Assembly: GCA_019638185.1 (NCBI GenBank)
Contig: JAHBUH010000026.1
Span: 1 to 59,178, forward strand
Direction: 5' to 3'
Length of the DNA: 59,178 bases
Origin: Leadbetterella sp.
GTDB lineage: Bacteria; Bacteroidota; Bacteroidia; Cytophagales; Spirosomataceae
Both the position numbers and the translations under genes were made by a program. The notes beneath the pieces were generated by a model that saw only the letters and a program-made list of their open reading frames with translations, was not told where the DNA came from and made no database searches. Positions 3,018-14,303 of this stretch are shown here, piece by piece (positions within the stretch are counted from its first letter, which is position 1; each line of letters begins with the position of its first letter).

Positions 3018-4820
3018 ATGCGCATTTTAAAAGTTCTTTTTGGAGTACTGATGGTTATTCCTGTGTATGGTAATATAGACAGGGTGTCAACGTACGTTCA
3101 ACAGCAGCTGGAAACCGCCAAAACTGTCCCCACGCCTCAAAAACTGGAAATACTGAACTCTGCCCTGGCACGCAGTGAGAAAAATGTCAGCTACACCGAT
3201 CAGCTCTCAATATTAAATGAACTTGCTGAATTTTATAGGGAACACCCTTCCCGGAGAATACAGTTTCTGCTAAAGGCACTGGCCATAGCAGAACATATTC
3301 ATTCTGATTCGCTCCGGAAGGAATACTCGGAGAAATTATTTAGTGGTCAGTTGATTATAGGTAATTATGAAAAAGTATTGGAATACGCCATCTACAATTA
3401 TACCCTTTACAAGGATGAATTGAGCGAGGCCTCTCTAATAAGCCTCAATGATATAGGTGTTGCGTATTTTGTCCTTAAAAATTACGATAAAGCCCTGGAA
3501 ATATTCAGAGAGTGCAATGCAAAAAACAGGGATTTGAACAGTAAAAAAGTAACCAATGCCTATCTTATAAATTCATCAAAAGTTTTTACTGAAACCCGGA
3601 ATTATGAAGAGGCGGTCAGGCTACTAAGCCAGGCTCTTAATATACAAGATGGTTATCTCGACAGGGAAATGTTTATTTATCGAGAGTTAGCATATAACTA
3701 TTTAAGCATGAATGATCCTGAGTCTGCGTTGAAAGCAGCAGAAAAAGGTTTAATGGCGGCAAGAAACTTAGATGAAAGCCTTAAAATGGATTTGTATGTG
3801 GTTTTAAGCAATATCTACCAGAAGAAAAATGATTTAAAGAACTATGTTTTATACCAGGGGAAATATACCCGTTACCAGCAGAAAGAAGATTCATTACGGA
3901 CACTGAGATTTACAGAACTCATGGATATTGATTACCAAAGCCATCAGAAATCACTGGAAATAAATGAACTGTCACAAGGGCTGGCCAGGCAGAGGTATCA
4001 TAACAAGCTATTACTTCTGGGGCTATCGGGATTCTTGCTAATTTCTGTCCTGGTGGGATACTTCTACCTGCTGCTCAAACGAAAAAAAGACCAGATTGCT
4101 GAAAAAACCAGGGAGATAGAGGCTTTAAACACAGCCCTGGAAGAAAAGGTGCAGGAGAGAACCCGGGAACTGGTAACGGCGAATGAAGAACTCATCAAAA
4201 AGAATGATGAAATTACGGAAGCTTTGTTTAAGGGGAAATCAATAGAAAGAGAGCGGGTAGCGGCAGAGCTTCATGATAACCTGGGCGGCACGCTTACCGC
4301 CATAAGGTGGCGACTGGCCGCCCTGCAATCGGAAAACCTTAGCCCGGAAGAACAAAAGATCTATGCCGGTATTAAGAGTATGATGGATACAGCTTATGGA
4401 GAAGTCAGGAATATATCTCATAATCTTAGCCCCAAAGAGCTGGAGAACGGCATTGTAGTAGCCCTTACCCGCTTAATCCAGAGCTTACAGGAAAACTCCA
4501 CTTTAGATATCCATATCCGAACTTCAAGTGATTTCCAAGGGTTGGATCGTAACATATGTCTTGAAATTTATAGTATTGTGTTAGAATTAATTACGAATAT
4601 CATTAAGCATTCAGGTGCTACAAAGGCTGAAATTGAATTATCGGAAACCGGGAAATCTATTTTATTACAAGTAAAAGATAACGGTATCGGCCTGCTTAAT
4701 CCGCAGGCTCGTGGTAAGGGGCTGAAAAATGTGGAAGAGCGGTTGAAGCGTATTAACGGCTTTATGCACCTTCACTCTTCTGAGCTTTTCAAAACCATAT
4801 ATCATATAGAAATTATCTGA
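3018..4820 (+). CDS. TPR-repeat sensor histidine kinase (HisKA_3 type)
   Basis: 600 residues. A signal peptide (residues 1-19) leads into a periplasmic region of TPR-like helical repeats (about 25-310, for example residues around SLNDIGVAYFVLKNYDKALE). One membrane segment follows (about 331-353), then a coiled coil (about 358-410), then a HisKA_3 dimerisation/phosphoacceptor helix with ERVAAELHDNLGGTLTAIRW and phosphorylatable H419. The HATPase_c domain has an N box (ELITNIIKHSG), a G1 box (DNGIG) and a G2 region (GKGLKNVEERL). This family pairs with NarL/LuxR-type response regulators. The nearest such regulator is at 7718-8377 on the opposite strand, beyond the kinase/HopA1 operon. The 3' end overlaps the end of the convergent HopA1-family gene by 19 bp. 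The partner assignment is an inference; the kinase identity is clear. Confidence 0.9.
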   Translation: MRILKVLFGVLMVIPVYGNIDRVSTYVQQQLETAKTVPTPQKLEILNSALARSEKNVSYTDQLSILNELAEFYREHPSRRIQFLLKALAIAEHIHSDSLRKEYSEKLFSGQLIIGNYEKVLEYAIYNYTLYKDELSEASLISLNDIGVAYFVLKNYDKALEIFRECNAKNRDLNSKKVTNAYLINSSKVFTETRNYEEAVRLLSQALNIQDGYLDREMFIYRELAYNYLSMNDPESALKAAEKGLMAARNLDESLKMDLYVVLSNIYQKKNDLKNYVLYQGKYTRYQQKEDSLRTLRFTELMDIDYQSHQKSLEINELSQGLARQRYHNKLLLLGLSGFLLISVLVGYFYLLLKRKKDQIAEKTREIEALNTALEEKVQERTRELVTANEELIKKNDEITEALFKGKSIERERVAAELHDNLGGTLTAIRWRLAALQSENLSPEEQKIYAGIKSMMDTAYGEVRNISHNLSPKELENGIVVALTRLIQSLQENSTLDIHIRTSSDFQGLDRNICLEIYSIVLELITNIIKHSGATKAEIELSETGKSILLQVKDNGIGLLNPQARGKGLKNVEERLKRINGFMHLHSSELFKTIYHIEII

Positions 4821-6250
4821 CGAAGAAAATGAGTTCCGATGTACACATAACCAAAATTATGATAGGATGCTATAAATTCATCATTAGGTAAATACGATAC
4901 TACACCCCGATGCCGAAAATTTTGAATCAGGTTTTTCTGATACACCTCATATATGGGTTGTGTCTGCTCCTCTCCCAGAAATTGGATATGTATAGCCTGA
5001 TTTACTTCTCCTCCACAATGTGTTTCCAGGGTGTTTAATCTATCCTCAAACTTCTCAATAGCAGACTTAGTTTGAAATGATCGTAAATAATACTTCACAA
5101 ATTCAAGTACGTAGTGATCAGCTAAATTTTTCTTACGTAGTGCTTCGAGGTAATTCAACAGGAAATAAATAATCTCTTCTTTTTCATCATCGGAACATAG
5201 CTTATAGGTTGTCTTGTCATTTACAAGAGCTATCTCACCCGGCTTATTTTTACATTCCGGGATATGAAAAAGAAAATTTTCTCCATCCTGATATACAATA
5301 AAGTTTTTAAGAATCAGGTAGACTATTTTTTTGACCATGGATAACCTGATATATCCTTTTCCCGATGGTAAATTTACGATATAATCATGAAAATCAATTC
5401 TCTGGTCAAATACACTGAAATTATAGGGGAAATTGGTATAAGGATTAAGATAGAATTTTTCCGGATTAAATCCCCTTTCCTTTAATTCCTGATCAATGAC
5501 AGCGATGTTTCCTCCGTTATTAATTAAAATTTCAGCCAGTACCTGGCACCTTTGTTGCCCAAAACTCTGGCCACTATCCGGATCTTCTGCAAAAGCCACA
5601 CCGGGAAATTCCGGGAAAGTTTTTACAAAGGGAAAGCATTGCGGCTGCTGAAAAATTCCGTACTTGGAGTAGTAGTTTTTTACAATGAGAAATACGAGGA
5701 AATAGTGCGATTTATCGAAGTAAAGCACACAGTTTTCGTTTCTTTTAGTGAATTTTTTCTCATACTTTAGCCTAAACGGAATTTCTTTGTCATTCAGGAC
5801 TTTTGCTAAATCCTGAATAAATTGGATGCTGTCTCTGCCTCCGCTTAAGCTGAAATAGAGCCTGGCCTGGTATGAGAAACTATGGTAGTGCTTTCCATGA
5901 AGCCAAATCCAATGAGCGGTTTCTATCTTTTTGGGAATAAGAATATTCACCAGGTTCTTTTGACCAATGCTCTCCTGCCAGGGGTCAATAGAAAACTCTT
6001 CATGACCAGCCACTACCGCGTCACTCCCCTTTTTCAGCAGATATTTCCCTATTGATTTAAAGTACTGATCTAATCGCTTGTCGTAAAACCAGCCCTGGTC
6101 TTTATAATACCCCCCTTTTATATTACTGTAGTCTGTTGAGAAAGGTAGGGCCTCACTGTTAGAGTAATGGAGATAAATAAGATCAGAAAGGGTCTCTAAT
6201 GAAGTTCCTCCCTGAAGAAATAATTTCCGGAGTACGTCGTAATCAATCAT
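4802..6250 (-). CDS. HopA1-family protein, probable phospho-Ser/Thr lyase of a RiPP-type dehydratase
   Basis: 482 residues. The central part (about 130-240) has the HopA1-family signature: a strand-rich segment RLYFSLSGG, a helix leading to IPFRLKYEKKF, a later VLYFDKSHYF, and the hallmark GVAFAEDPDSGQSFGQQRC at 217-235. HopA1 was named from a Pseudomonas effector, but in thioamitide (TvaD) and class V lanthipeptide (LxmY) clusters such proteins act with an aminoglycoside-phosphotransferase-like kinase, the pair dehydrating Ser/Thr in a precursor peptide. Here the ATG overlaps the stop of exactly such a kinase gene by 8 bp (ATGATTGA), so translational coupling is likely. No signal peptide or membrane segment, hence cytoplasmic. 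The 3' end overlaps the convergent sensor kinase gene. Family assignment comes from motif recognition; the lyase role is inferred from the pairing. Confidence 0.75.
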   Translation of the reverse strand: MIDYDVLRKLFLQGGTSLETLSDLIYLHYSNSEALPFSTDYSNIKGGYYKDQGWFYDKRLDQYFKSIGKYLLKKGSDAVVAGHEEFSIDPWQESIGQKNLVNILIPKKIETAHWIWLHGKHYHSFSYQARLYFSLSGGRDSIQFIQDLAKVLNDKEIPFRLKYEKKFTKRNENCVLYFDKSHYFLVFLIVKNYYSKYGIFQQPQCFPFVKTFPEFPGVAFAEDPDSGQSFGQQRCQVLAEILINNGGNIAVIDQELKERGFNPEKFYLNPYTNFPYNFSVFDQRIDFHDYIVNLPSGKGYIRLSMVKKIVYLILKNFIVYQDGENFLFHIPECKNKPGEIALVNDKTTYKLCSDDEKEEIIYFLLNYLEALRKKNLADHYVLEFVKYYLRSFQTKSAIEKFEDRLNTLETHCGGEVNQAIHIQFLGEEQTQPIYEVYQKNLIQNFRHRGVVSYLPNDEFIASYHNFGYVYIGTHFLRQIISI

Positions 6251-7322
6251 TTTGGATATACAGATCTAATGCTACATCATCTAAATACCAATCCGTTGCC
6301 TTATAGCGAACTAATTTCAGGATTAAATCCAGGTGCTTCCTAAAATTCTTTACCTTCTTGAAAACTAATTTTTGTAAACGGTGCAAAATAAATAAGTAGT
6401 AATACTTTTCAAGAATAGTGGCTTCCTCCTCGCCTGTAATTTCCGAGATTTTTTTCACCGCCTCTTTCATGAAAAACCTTAGCTGTCCCCTCCTTTCTTC
6501 TGATTTCGAATTACTTCCGAATTTTAAACATAATTCTGCAACTATTGAACTTGTAAGAGTTACCAGGTCATAAACTCTGTCTCCTACGGCCAGGTTTTCA
6601 AAATCAATCAAATACAATTCCGGAACAGCAGGATAGCCTTTCTCTTTCATCAGAATATTTCGGACAAACAGATCTCCATGAATAATGTCTCTTTTAAAGA
6701 CTACAGCTGTACATTTGTTTAACAGGAAATCAGTAACATCCGGATGGTTTAAAAAGTGCTTGACTGCATTCTTCTGATCACTCTCTGCCCCCCTCAATTC
6801 AAAAAGCAGTTCAATATCATCAAAAGTATAATAGTTCTTAAAGGCATTAAGTATCACCTCGTATTCAGCTATTCCGGCTACTCCTTTGAAATTATCAGTA
6901 GAAATGTAAAATGCAGTTATGCACTTTTCCAAGGCTGATAATAAGTAATTTGTGCCATTTTCAAAAGCGTTTTCATCCTTAGCAAAAAGCAGGTCACATA
7001 GCCAGGAATAGCCAAGTGGATAACCTCGGGGCATCAAAAAATATTTATGGGGGGAAGACAGGTATTTGAGACTTTTCGCATCTATATGTTTATAATAAGA
7101 AACCTCCCGGTTAAAACCAAAATATACGTTTCCTGAGTACACAATAGCCTGCTTAAGTATCCATCTGTCTTCCCCGCTTTTCAGCTCAAAGATTTCATTT
7201 CGTGTACCTTCATTTTGGAGCGTGGTCAACTCCAGATTCTGAATCTGAGAAGCACCTAGTAAGCCCTGAAATCCGTTACTTGAAATTACTTCAAAGTAGA
7301 AATTTTTAGATGTTAGAAACAT
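6243..7322 (-). CDS. Aminoglycoside-phosphotransferase-like kinase paired with HopA1 protein
   Basis: 359 residues with the protein-kinase-like fold of the APH family. An ATP-binding lysine is in WILKQA (K57), a partner glutamate in NREVSYYK (E73), the catalytic loop HGDLFVRN (H215-N222, with D217) and the metal-binding LIDFEN (D240). All core catalytic residues are present, so it should be active. In thioamitide (TvaC) and class V lanthipeptide (LxmK) pathways a kinase of this type phosphorylates Ser/Thr of a precursor peptide before a HopA1 protein eliminates phosphate. It lies 9 bp after the 106-residue gene and overlaps the HopA1 gene by 8 bp, so the three form one transcription unit. Alternative: a small-molecule or choline-type kinase. 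The pairing makes peptide phosphorylation more likely. Confidence 0.75.
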   Translation of the reverse strand: MFLTSKNFYFEVISSNGFQGLLGASQIQNLELTTLQNEGTRNEIFELKSGEDRWILKQAIVYSGNVYFGFNREVSYYKHIDAKSLKYLSSPHKYFLMPRGYPLGYSWLCDLLFAKDENAFENGTNYLLSALEKCITAFYISTDNFKGVAGIAEYEVILNAFKNYYTFDDIELLFELRGAESDQKNAVKHFLNHPDVTDFLLNKCTAVVFKRDIIHGDLFVRNILMKEKGYPAVPELYLIDFENLAVGDRVYDLVTLTSSIVAELCLKFGSNSKSEERRGQLRFFMKEAVKKISEITGEEEATILEKYYYLFILHRLQKLVFKKVKNFRKHLDLILKLVRYKATDWYLDDVALDLYIQND

Positions 7323-7331
7323 TGTAAGAAA

Positions 7332-7652
7332 TCAATAACCATGATTTGGAGTATAGGTCTTATTGGCTTCTTTCGCGTTCATTAATTCCGTTATTGACTT
7401 AAACTGTGTCTCCACTTTTTCATGCCAATTTTCAACCTCGTCATTTGTTTCAATTTCATTAAATGAAAGGTTTGTAAAATCACCATCTACTTGAATGGTA
7501 CTCCCGGCCGGGAGAATGTCATCTGTCACAAATGTAGAAATGATGTCATCCTCACCCCGCTTAATAAAAAGTACATAATCAGCCTTAGCCTTATCTCTCC
7601 ATTCGTCAGACAGTTTTTTAACACATCCATTAACTTTTACAGTCTTAGCCAT
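7332..7652 (-). CDS. 106-residue small protein, candidate RiPP precursor or pathway partner
   Basis: First gene of the kinase/HopA1 operon. The protein is acidic, soluble and unrecognised, with no signal peptide. Residues 1-70 show alternating hydrophobic strands (KADYVLFIKRGEDD; STFVTDDILPAGSTIQVDGD), residues 71-96 look helical (ENWHEKVETQFKSITELM), and the tail (about 97-106) is NKTYTPNHGY with two threonines. This is a large leader-like part followed by a short Thr-containing tail, as in long-leader precursors. There is only one Cys (residue 10), so a classical lanthionine in the tail is impossible without another Cys donor; dehydrobutyrine-only modification would still be possible. It could instead be a recognition or scaffold protein. 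Start is the ATG at 7650-7652, and 65 bp separate it from the response regulator gene. Confidence 0.6.
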   Translation of the reverse strand: MAKTVKVNGCVKKLSDEWRDKAKADYVLFIKRGEDDIISTFVTDDILPAGSTIQVDGDFTNLSFNEIETNDEVENWHEKVETQFKSITELMNAKEANKTYTPNHGY

Positions 7653-7717: not shown

Positions 7718-8377
7718 TCATGTCTCACCCACCACCCCGTTCTTCAGCCCCCACCTCACCAATCCCACTGCCGAGCTTACTCCTATTTTCTTCATCAGGT
7801 TACGGCGGTGGGTATCCACTGTGGCCGGACTGATGTTCAGGCGGGCGGCTATTTCCGTGCTTTCCAGGTCTTCGGCTATTAGGCGGATGATCTCTATTTC
7901 GCGTTTGGTCAGCGACTGGATATCCTGCACGCGGGTTCTGCCGGTGGCCGAGCTATCATCGGGGACTTCGGCCAGCTTACGCACTACCTTTTCCCCGAAG
8001 AATTTTTTACCGGAGGATACCACCTGGATGGCCTTTATCAGTTCTGTTTTTTCAGCGCTCTTCATCACAAAACCGTCTACCCCGGCCTGGATGCTTTCTT
8101 TAATAAAGGTGGCCTCCTCGTTCATGGTGAGCATAATGGTCTTTACCCGGGGGTGTTTTTCACGGAGACGGGCCAGCAGCTCCACTCCGTTCATCACCGG
8201 CATGTGGTAATCTAACAGCACTACATCGGCTTCGTATTTCTCCAGGAAATCCAGGACCTGAACACCGTTTCGCACTATGCCCACTACCTCTATAGTGCTC
8301 ACTGAGCCCATCAGCAGGGAAAGGCTGTCAGCTACGAGGGGGTGGTCATCGGCGATCAGGAGTCGGATCTTGCTCAT
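7718..8377 (-). CDS. NarL/FixJ-type response regulator
   Basis: 219 residues from the ATG of MSKIRLLIADDHP; a TTG two codons further upstream is less likely. The receiver domain (about 4-120) has acidic pocket D10/D11, phosphoacceptor D56 (LLDYHMP), the Thr switch (TMNEE) and the conserved Lys (VMKSAEK). The LuxR-type helix-turn-helix (about 152-210) contains LTKREIEIIRLIAEDLEST and the recognition helix ISPATVDTHRRNLMKKI. It should bind DNA as a dimer when phosphorylated. It lies 65 bp upstream of the small-protein/kinase/HopA1 operon on the same strand with no terminator between, so it could be co-transcribed with and control that operon. Its base composition matches the GC-richer genes to its right rather than the AT-rich cassette. 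The likely cognate kinase is at 3018. Confidence 0.9.
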   Translation of the reverse strand: MSKIRLLIADDHPLVADSLSLLMGSVSTIEVVGIVRNGVQVLDFLEKYEADVVLLDYHMPVMNGVELLARLREKHPRVKTIMLTMNEEATFIKESIQAGVDGFVMKSAEKTELIKAIQVVSSGKKFFGEKVVRKLAEVPDDSSATGRTRVQDIQSLTKREIEIIRLIAEDLESTEIAARLNISPATVDTHRRNLMKKIGVSSAVGLVRWGLKNGVVGET

Positions 8378-8455
8378 ATTCAATTATAAATGTACATTAT
8401 TTATCAATACCTTCCCTACATTAACAATACAAATATGAGCGGAGAAAACGGGTGA

Positions 8456-11829: not shown

Positions 11830-13602
11830 ATGATAAAAGCTTTTTTACTGCTTATTATCCCCCTGGCCCAGGTCATTTTCAGGCCGGAGGCTTCCATGCA
11901 GACTTTTGAAAACCAATATGCGTATTACGTAGACAGCACGAACGCCCTGTCGGTAGAGGCGCTGCTGGCCGCGCCCCGGCACTTTACCGTGATCCCCACG
12001 CCGTCAGCCCATTTTGGCCGCAACCTGAACACCCATTGGCTCCGCTTACCCGTCAGAAACACCCAAAACAAAGCCATAAAACTCTATCTCCAAAACAGCC
12101 ACCCGTACATTGATAACCTGGAATTCTACCAGGTCAGAAACGGACGGGTAGTGAAAGAAGCGGCCTTTGATTACGAAAAAAAACGGAAAGTAAACCTGGT
12201 CAGGGAAGTGGCCCGGCCTACTTTCCAGGTAGACCTGGAGGCCGGGGAAGAGGCCGTGGTGTATGCTAAATTCAGAAACGCGGCCGGTACCCTCATCTTT
12301 GACGTAAGGCTCTTCGGTGAAGAATCTTTCCTGCGTTCCACCCTGCACGAAGAACGGATCTACAATGTGCTGATGGGTACTCTGCTGGCGTTTTCGGTTT
12401 TGGCATTCTGCTATTTTATCATATCAAAATCAGCGATTTATTTATACTACGGCCTCTATACTTTATTCATCAATATTGCCATCCAGGGCCAGACCGGCCG
12501 GCTCTATAATATGCTGGATTTTAAAATTGACTTTTTTAACGGCGATTCCAGCTTCCGCTACTACGGAAGCCTGGCACTCATAGCTAACATCCTCTTCCTG
12601 AAAGAGCTGTTCGGCGAAAAGCCCTGGAAAGGCATCTATAAATACATGAGCCTTACTTTTCTGAGCCTGGGCATCTTCCTGAACGTGGTCACGTTTTTTG
12701 ACTGGGGTTTTATTTATTACAAAGTAAACAGCCTGGTGAATGTGTACACCCTGTTCAGCGGCGTATTCCTTCTTAATCTCTTGTATTTTATCAATAAAAA
12801 GAAAAAAGCCTATGTGCTATACCTGGTCAGCTTCCTGCCCCTCATTATTTTACTGGCTTACCGTTTAGTGACGCTGGCCGGTGTGATGCATACTCCCGTT
12901 AACTTCTCGCACTTTACCCCGCCGGCCCTGGCGCTGGAGTCGCTTATTCTGCTGGTAGGGCTATCCAAGAGCTTTATCCGCCAGCTGTTGGAAAAAAATA
13001 GGCTCGAAAAACACTTGAAAGTGGCGCATATTGAAACCCAGGAAGCGGAAAGACAGAAGATTGCGGCTGACCTGCACGATGACCTGGGCTCTACCCTGGC
13101 CCTGCTGAAAGATAAGATTGCGAGCGGTTCCGATGCCTCGCTGGACATTGTCAATAAAGCCCTGAAAGACCTTCGTTCCATCTCTCACCAGCTCATGCCC
13201 CAGGAGTTTGAGCATCTGGGGTTCCGGAAATCGCTAGAGAAATATATCCTGGAGCACAATGAATCGGCAGAACTGCAGATAAGCCTGATTTTTTACGGGG
13301 AAAATACCGGTTTGCCGCCTGAAAAAGAGTTGAACATCTACCGCATCCTGACGGAGCTCATCCATAATACTAAAAAACACAGTACGGCAAAAGAGGTATG
13401 CATCCAGATGACACGGCGGGACGACTGCTTTTCCGTAAGCTACGAAGAATCCGGCGGCGGCGCACCTGACGCTCCTGATGCCGGAGGCCTGGGGCAGCGG
13501 TCAGTGGAATCCCGGCTAAGGTATATTGATGCCCGTATCCTGGAAAATAAATTCGGAAAAAACGGCTACCTGCTGGTTTTTGAAACTAAGCCCGGCGAAT
13601 AA
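11830..13602 (+). CDS. 7TMR-DISM sensor histidine kinase
   Basis: 590 residues. Signal-like N terminus, then an extracytoplasmic 7TMR-DISMED2-type sensor (about 30-170; NTHWLRLPVRNTQNKAIKLY, IDNLEFYQV), a seven-helix 7TMR-DISM membrane domain (about 180-385), a short coiled coil, and a HisKA_3 domain with QKIAADLHDDLGSTLALLKD (H416). DISM sensors are thought to bind carbohydrate or similar ligands. The HATPase part has a normal N box (ELIHNTKKHS), but the G1 box reads YEESGGGAP where D-x-G-x-G is expected, so the adenine-contacting Asp appears replaced by Glu or Ser. The cognate regulator gene follows after 86 bp. Together they may control the TonB receptor/lipoprotein pair directly downstream. 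Confidence 0.88.
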   Translation: MIKAFLLLIIPLAQVIFRPEASMQTFENQYAYYVDSTNALSVEALLAAPRHFTVIPTPSAHFGRNLNTHWLRLPVRNTQNKAIKLYLQNSHPYIDNLEFYQVRNGRVVKEAAFDYEKKRKVNLVREVARPTFQVDLEAGEEAVVYAKFRNAAGTLIFDVRLFGEESFLRSTLHEERIYNVLMGTLLAFSVLAFCYFIISKSAIYLYYGLYTLFINIAIQGQTGRLYNMLDFKIDFFNGDSSFRYYGSLALIANILFLKELFGEKPWKGIYKYMSLTFLSLGIFLNVVTFFDWGFIYYKVNSLVNVYTLFSGVFLLNLLYFINKKKKAYVLYLVSFLPLIILLAYRLVTLAGVMHTPVNFSHFTPPALALESLILLVGLSKSFIRQLLEKNRLEKHLKVAHIETQEAERQKIAADLHDDLGSTLALLKDKIASGSDASLDIVNKALKDLRSISHQLMPQEFEHLGFRKSLEKYILEHNESAELQISLIFYGENTGLPPEKELNIYRILTELIHNTKKHSTAKEVCIQMTRRDDCFSVSYEESGGGAPDAPDAGGLGQRSVESRLRYIDARILENKFGKNGYLLVFETKPGE

Positions 13603-13688
13603 AAACGGGGGCGGGCTTGTGGTTTACCGGTTTTTTTGATAAATTTATTATGAGAATACCGGATACGTATTTTTATAAGACCACCCCT

Positions 13689-14303
13689 ATGACCAAAATA
13701 CTGATTGCTGACGACCACCAGCTGTATAGCGACGGCCTGAAATATACACTGGAAAAAGAGTTTAACGTGGTTTCCCAGATTTTTCACGGGAGAGATGTAT
13801 TGTTTGAAATTCAGCGCCATTTTCCCCACCTGGCTATATTGGATATTAACCTGCCCGGCACTAACGGACTGGACCTGGGCCGGATCGTCCGAAGCGACTT
13901 CCCCGAAGTAAAGGTGGTCTTTCTGAGCATGTACCGCGAGGAGGCCTTTGTGAAAATAGCCCGGGAAATAGGGGCCTACGGGTATTTTTGTAAAGAATCC
14001 AGCGGATCTGATATCCTGCAGGGCATTAAAAGAGTGCTCCGGGGAGAAGCGGTCTTCGAAACGCATCCGCCGGAAATACGCTCTGTACACTCCGGTGATT
14101 ATTTTGTAAAAACCTTTTCCCTCAGCCGGCGGGAACTGGAGGTCATTAAACAGATACGGCTCGGGCTAAGCTCAGAGCAGATCGCCGAGGCCATGTGTCT
14201 AAGCTATGAAACCATAAAATCACATCGCAAAAACATCTTCTTTAAGCTCAATATCAGCAAAGTATCCGAGCTCATAGCCTTTGCCATTAAAAACGGGATC
14301 TGA
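13689..14303 (+). CDS. NarL/FixJ-type response regulator (partner of the 7TMR-DISM kinase)
   Basis: 204 residues from the ATG of MTKILIADDHQLYSDG. A longer frame from 13617 would add 24 residues with no place in the receiver fold, so the internal ATG is preferred. The receiver has D8/D9, phosphoacceptor D52 (LAILDINLPG), a Ser switch (LSMYREE) and Lys in FCKESSG. A LuxR-type helix-turn-helix at the C terminus carries LSRRELEVIKQI and YETIKSHRKNIFFKLNI. Located just after its likely kinase and before a TonB-dependent receptor operon, which suggests ligand-responsive control of that uptake system. Confidence 0.9.
   Translation: MTKILIADDHQLYSDGLKYTLEKEFNVVSQIFHGRDVLFEIQRHFPHLAILDINLPGTNGLDLGRIVRSDFPEVKVVFLSMYREEAFVKIAREIGAYGYFCKESSGSDILQGIKRVLRGEAVFETHPPEIRSVHSGDYFVKTFSLSRRELEVIKQIRLGLSSEQIAEAMCLSYETIKSHRKNIFFKLNISKVSELIAFAIKNGI

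Follow-up and report, generated by a model that had tools for sequence, protein, structure and literature searches.

What do three tightly packed genes near one end of a Bacteroidota contig produce? The genes lie on contig JAHBUH010000026.1 of Leadbetterella sp. (assembly GCA_019638185.1), of which we analyzed positions 1 to 59,178, here called the window. An earlier reading of the sequence alone (the sequence-only reading) had proposed a small protein beside a split Ser/Thr dehydratase. Our analysis makes it likely that the genes form a regulated peptide-modifying cassette, in which a kinase (K) and a phospho-lyase (Y) dehydrate the tail of a small protein (S), a LanC-like remnant in Y helps ring closure, and a two-component system exerts control. 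Such a cassette would be a little-studied relative of the enzymes behind lanthipeptide antibiotics. The core features are as follows.

7332..7652, minus strand: open reading frame of S, a small protein of 106 amino acids, the proposed substrate or precursor
7341..7358, minus strand: tail motif of S, T99-Y-T101-P-N-H104, the proposed modification site
6243..7322, minus strand: K, an APH-fold kinase of 359 amino acids, with K57, Q58, H215, D217, N222, D240 and E242
4802..6250, minus strand: Y, 482 amino acids, in which a HopA1-type phospho-lyase and a reduced LanC-like domain are fused
5447..5869, minus strand: residues 128-268 of Y, the HopA1 lyase domain, with catalytic R130, K162, R170 and Y177
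4805..5368, minus strand: C-terminal region of Y (roughly residues 295-482), LanC-like, reduced and without the CHG zinc motif

The open reading frames agree with the packing described from sequence alone, with a 9-bp gap between S and K and an 8-bp overlap between K and Y. K matches the Pfam family PF01636 (APH; E = 4.2e-8) with 33.7 bits, above the cut-off of 23.2. Across an alignment of 24 homologues, K57, D217, N222 and D240 never vary and H215 is kept in 21, bearing out the full APH catalytic set that had been read in the kinase. K is also the sole strong member of its family in the window's genome (4.5e-64; next match 0.019). The HopA1 signature reported for Y likewise held up: PF17914 covers residues 128-268 (E = 2.6e-20, 73.4 bits, cut-off 22.7), and R130 and K162 occur in 26 of 26 homologues with the spacing of CaoY, a correspondence made by spacing and not by alignment to CaoY.

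The pair stays together across genomes, a point on which the sequence-only reading had staked itself. We took all 49 distinct HopA1 matches of the window's bacterial family (48 loci and the window). In 48 of them K either immediately precedes Y in the same orientation or forms one chain with it; the sequence of the remaining locus, L044, starts within Y, where its contig ends. Fusions of K and Y occur at L043:4532-7456 (974 amino acids; Pfam places APH at 51-285 and HopA1 at 550-708) and L048:4403-7333 (976 amino acids). Outside the family, all three Bacteroidia loci read K-Y-LanC and all nine Nostocales loci read K-Y. Profile matches, predicted fold and active-site residues, together with this conserved pairing, thus lend good support to the assignment of K and Y as a LanK/LanY-type kinase and phospho-lyase of the TvaC/TvaD and LxmK/LxmY kind, as had been proposed. 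We attribute the putative dehydration to K and the HopA1 lyase because of this family assignment and because the active-site residues are intact. The class III LanKC model NF038151 scored 15.1 against a cut-off of 575; in place of a single LanKC, the window has two separate proteins of other families. The two fusions run kinase-lyase-C-terminal part, whereas LanKC and LanL run lyase-kinase-cyclase.

The earlier statement that no cyclase is visible has to be given up. Y has a C-terminal part that is related to LanC in sequence or fold, fused to the lyase and reduced, and Y as a bare lyase is thereby ruled out. The CHG/CCG zinc-ligand motif appears in none of 26 window-type Y C-terminal parts, while it is present in all five separate LanC proteins inspected and in both full-length HopA1-LanC fusions. 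The LanC-like region spans 185-296 amino acids in 25 of the 26 Y proteins and 403 in L072. Searched alone against solved structures, window Y gave no match; a six-pattern search of a collection of genome contigs revealed no close relative of it, and no separate LanC above cut-off was found in the window's genome, a 95% complete draft. The two full-length fusions, both with zinc motifs, lie at L104:3376-8322 on a Deinococcus sp. QL22 plasmid, adjoining a phosphotransferase and an S8 peptidase, and at L105:3089-6833 on a Rhizobium johnstonii plasmid, adjoining a phosphotransferase.

S itself belongs to no family above cut-off in Pfam, NCBIfam, PHROG or PADLOC. Forty loci have no separate LanC, and we aligned the S gene from 31 of these (alignment A3), leaving out two near copies (L033, L066), one cut locus (L044), one locus with a cut Y (L067), three loci without a recognized S (L053, L059, L070) and two whose S candidate is placed elsewhere (L060, L063). 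In the aligned loci S occupies the same place before K, and the proteins (106-193 amino acids) share a mean column identity of 13%. Most S subgroups were mutually unmatched; the sole pairs above 20% probability were arc-flec (90%), flec-run (53%), arc-run (39%) and window-g1 (24%). The predicted structure of S has a predicted local distance difference test score (pLDDT) of 41 and a predicted template modelling score (pTM) of 0.25.

Against this variability, the tails share a pattern, chosen post hoc with the S sequences already seen. The strict motif [ST]x[ST]x(2,3)[HC] falls in the last 34 residues of 20 of the 31 S proteins (3,000 shuffles of the tails gave a mean of 2.55 and a maximum of 9) and the looser [ST]x(2,3)[HC] in 28 (shuffled: mean 12.5, maximum 22). 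Other open reading frames of 90-240 amino acids from the same loci have the strict form in 4 and the loose form in 45 of 175; the corresponding counts are 2 and 6 of 24 for K tails and 1 and 9 of 26 for Y tails. For the S-like proteins outside A3, L066 has the strict motif, L060 and L063 have the loose form only and further in, and L033 and L067 have neither. His is present in the last 34 residues of 23 of the 31 and Cys without His in the other 8. Ser or Thr stands at position -3 of 18 of 32 tail His residues, versus 4 of 59 His residues in the S bodies; for tail Cys (n = 13) it stands at -4 of 7 and at -6 of 9. Window S has its sole Cys at residue 10 and none in the tail, and hence lacks the Cys plus Ser/Thr core of a lanthipeptide, but carries the Thr-x-x-His of LanKC-Hbt as T101-P-N-H104. 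Gene order and the Ser/Thr-rich, His- or Cys-ended tail suggest S as the substrate. Because His and Cys interchange at one place, 3-4 residues after Ser/Thr, a ring may form in that tail.

We infer both chemical steps, as well as the regulation of the operon and any biological role. K would bind S and phosphorylate Ser/Thr in its C-terminal tail, T99 and/or T101 in the window. K162 of the HopA1 domain, with R130 assisting, would then take the alpha proton, and elimination of phosphate would give dehydrobutyrine or dehydroalanine. The zinc-less LanC-like remnant of Y would hold the tail or help close a ring to His104 (to Cys in some relatives), and the operon would probably be under the control of the histidine kinase and the response regulator on its two sides. 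The fuller picture we offer tentatively: a Cytophagales branch may combine a class V-type kinase with a HopA1 lyase that is fused to a zinc-free LanC remnant, and thereby end a fast-evolving, possibly folded protein in a His-dehydroamino-acid ring (Cys in some species), under dedicated two-component control, giving a ring-tailed protein and not a classical small lanthipeptide.

Dehydration might instead stop short of a ring. Free dehydrobutyrine or dehydroalanine would remain in the S tail, the LanC-like part would serve only as a scaffold, and the electrophile or altered tail would be the end point or react with another molecule. The shortness of the LanC-like region and the absence of CHG/CCG from all 26 examined fit this alternative, as do three same-family genomes whose short Y proteins lack that domain (L046, 263 amino acids; L049, 292 amino acids; L070, broken). 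Free dehydroamino acids, however, need no His or Cys partner, and a His or Cys 3-4 residues past Ser/Thr is kept across S proteins that otherwise cannot be aligned. We consider a ring-free product rather unlikely.

We give less credence to the idea that K and Y act on another protein, such as a partner, a competitor or the flanking signalling pair, while S serves as an adaptor, an inhibitor or a cofactor protein. In its favor, S is highly variable and, at 106-193 amino acids, large for a precursor, and the HopA1 family was first known, according to PMC9486802, for effectors that act on proteins in trans. Yet S is precursor-like in position, first before K and Y, and in its Ser/Thr-His/Cys tail, and K/Y pairs of sister loci that have a LanC adjoin Cys-rich repeat precursors. 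Nine of the 49 in-family loci (within L050-L058, plus L061) have a separate LanC after Y. At least five of them (L050, L051, L052, L055, L057) encode a protein of 250-278 amino acids with a Cys/Ser/Thr-rich C-terminal part, L050 also encodes a subtilase (7.7e-21), and outside the family L096 and L098 have Cys-repeat proteins immediately before K. These Cys-rich proteins look like lanthipeptide precursors served by a zinc LanC, and the K-Y-LanC loci (the nine, plus L096-L098) are likely lanthipeptide clusters in Bacteroidota. Compared with the leader part of the Cys-rich precursors, the S bodies of every subgroup gave less than 1% probability.

The window copy could also be a decaying member of its group, its C-terminal part the least LanC-like and perhaps being lost. 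Y is broken in three other loci (L040, L044, L070), and the C-terminal region of window Y, at 198 amino acids, is shorter than in most relatives. Set against this, no window frame of the three is interrupted, they are tightly packed, and neither the catalytic residues nor the tail motif has been lost; decay appears improbable. That K is an ordinary small-molecule, aminoglycoside-like kinase grouped with Y by accident is very improbable: its profile finds methylthioribose kinase (1.3e-11) and choline kinase (8e-11) among PDB structures, with no LxmK in the best 60 of 408 matches, K alone finds only weak kinase matches among solved structures and no NCBIfam model at its cut-off, but superfamily matches are expected for any APH fold, and the adjacency of K and Y, their two fusions and their pairing in Nostocales and other Bacteroidia rule out a drug-resistance or other small-molecule kinase. 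An anti-phage defense or phage reading was rejected as well, with no PADLOC match at E 0.1 for S, K or Y and only two weak PHROG matches for K (0.021, 0.094).

Returning to the cassette as a regulated peptide-modifying unit, two signalling genes flank it in the window.

3018..4820, plus strand: HK, a histidine kinase with tetratricopeptide repeats (TPR) and the domains HisKA_3 and HATPase_c; its gene and that of Y are convergent, the 3' ends sharing 19 bp
7718..8383, minus strand: RR, a response regulator of the NarL/LuxR type, separated from S downstream by 65 bp, with an alternative ATG start at 8377

The sequence-only reading had described a minimal three-gene cassette. S, K and Y were confirmed, but a two-component system usually flanks them: 33 of the 49 loci have a convergent histidine kinase no more than 250 bp after Y, with a 34th behind the broken Y of L044. 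In 27 of the 49, the 3.5 kb upstream include a regulator gene on the same strand. Two-component genes occur in other orders in L053, L059, L060, L063 and L070, and L067 ends inside Y at a contig end. Window HK has a hydrophobic N-terminus and a single hydrophobic stretch near residue 331, an arrangement in which its TPR part may face outward. Trees of K, Y and the histidine kinase agree (r 0.66-0.75, permutation maxima 0.21-0.23), and the regulator tree agrees less (r 0.37-0.53, permutation maxima 0.38-0.39). This agreement fits a cassette that may move together, though common descent could also produce it. By their Pfam matches, none of 14 other window proteins scanned (between positions 13 and 19443; four without an above-threshold match) is a peptidase or ABC exporter, in line with the earlier remark that neither a peptidase nor a transporter is visible. 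Of 222 genomes from the window's family, 44 have HopA1; in a class sample of 395 genomes the number is 4, the window's own counted.

The dehydratase itself is of a known kind, as K/HopA1 pairs and HopA1-LanC fusions were already noted in 2021. Eyles et al. 2021 arrived at a total of 1,340 HopA1 proteins from several phyla, of which 96% had a phosphotransferase beside them and 20% were near or fused to LanC, and suggested the fusions as a possible new lanthionine synthetase (PMC8153245); the view that such pairs are mostly actinobacterial does not stand against these numbers. A passage of a 2025 review describes class V as so far found in actinobacteria only (PMC12328550), and PMC9486802 already lists cyanobacterial precursors. 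In the main text of PMC8153245, "Bacteroid", "histidine kinase", "two-component" and "response regulator" have 0 occurrences. We found no report of the zinc-less, two-component-linked, His-tailed hypervariable branch in the open-licence papers searched, and HopA1-LanC families in the PMC8153245 supplement may include it.

Relative to the class V lanthipeptide and thioamitide dehydratases CaoK-CaoY, LxmK-LxmY and TsaC-TsaD, window Y has an extra, reduced LanC-like domain, the tail of window S is without Cys, a two-component system flanks the genes, and neither a decarboxylase nor a LanX-type second kinase was seen. The HopA1-LanC fusions and clusters of PMC8153245 and the class Vb LanC SmoC, in the account given in PMC12328550, are alike in that a LanC-like cyclase adjoins the lyase or forms one protein with it, and an APH kinase precedes the lyase. 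The Deinococcus and Rhizobium fusions (777-800 amino acids) and the separate LanC proteins examined keep WCHG and CHG, whereas the window-type domain is shorter, is without both, and goes with tails that favor His. Closest in the proposed ring chemistry is the noursin synthetase NorKC (LanKC-Hbt, class III), which, as far as the cited text of PMC10206099 goes, is of the metal-independent type, adds His to dehydrobutyrine, and links residues 8 and 11, an i to i+3 spacing equal to that of T101-H104. NorKC differs in being one protein of another lyase/kinase family with a full cyclase domain, acting on a substrate that also has Cys and labionin. The class VI synthetases of Streptococcus (He et al. 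2023, as summarized in parts of PMC10676316 and PMC12328550) also combine a kinase with truncated lyase/cyclase parts, but each is a single LanKC-like protein with very short substrates, a distinction drawn from descriptions and not from sequence.

If true, the proposed pathway would need just two enzymes and no zinc to make dehydroamino acids, and possibly His crosslinks, in a substrate the size of a protein, a compact route. Links from His to butyrine are called unprecedented and chemically hard to make in the text cited from PMC10206099. The natural series from zinc-type LanC with Cys-rich precursors, through fused LanC, to reduced LanC with mostly His tails offers a ready set for asking how cyclase chemistry moves from Cys to His, and the histidine kinase link suggests a signalling or self-regulating role for the cassette.

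Several loci carry further genes. An extra protein-glutaminase-like gene lies between S and K, or before K, at L046:4675-5121, L049:7681-8304 and L070:8099-8944, where Y is short and without the LanC-like part; its PF18626 matches are below cut-off (0.0012, 0.00044), and RefSeq gives the L070 copy that name. L053 and L059 have doubled two-component genes around the K-Y pair, with S not recognizable. A LytTR-like gene (~100-120 amino acids) follows the histidine kinase in L041, L044, L046, L049, L060 and L070, often with a protein of 67-81 amino acids beside it; none was seen in the window's first 14 kb. Close to the window's cassette, at 11830-14303, lies a second two-component pair of another type, a 7TMR-DISM histidine kinase with a LuxR-type regulator, and positions 434-2536 encode a protein of 700 amino acids whose start is signal-like and which belongs to no Pfam family.

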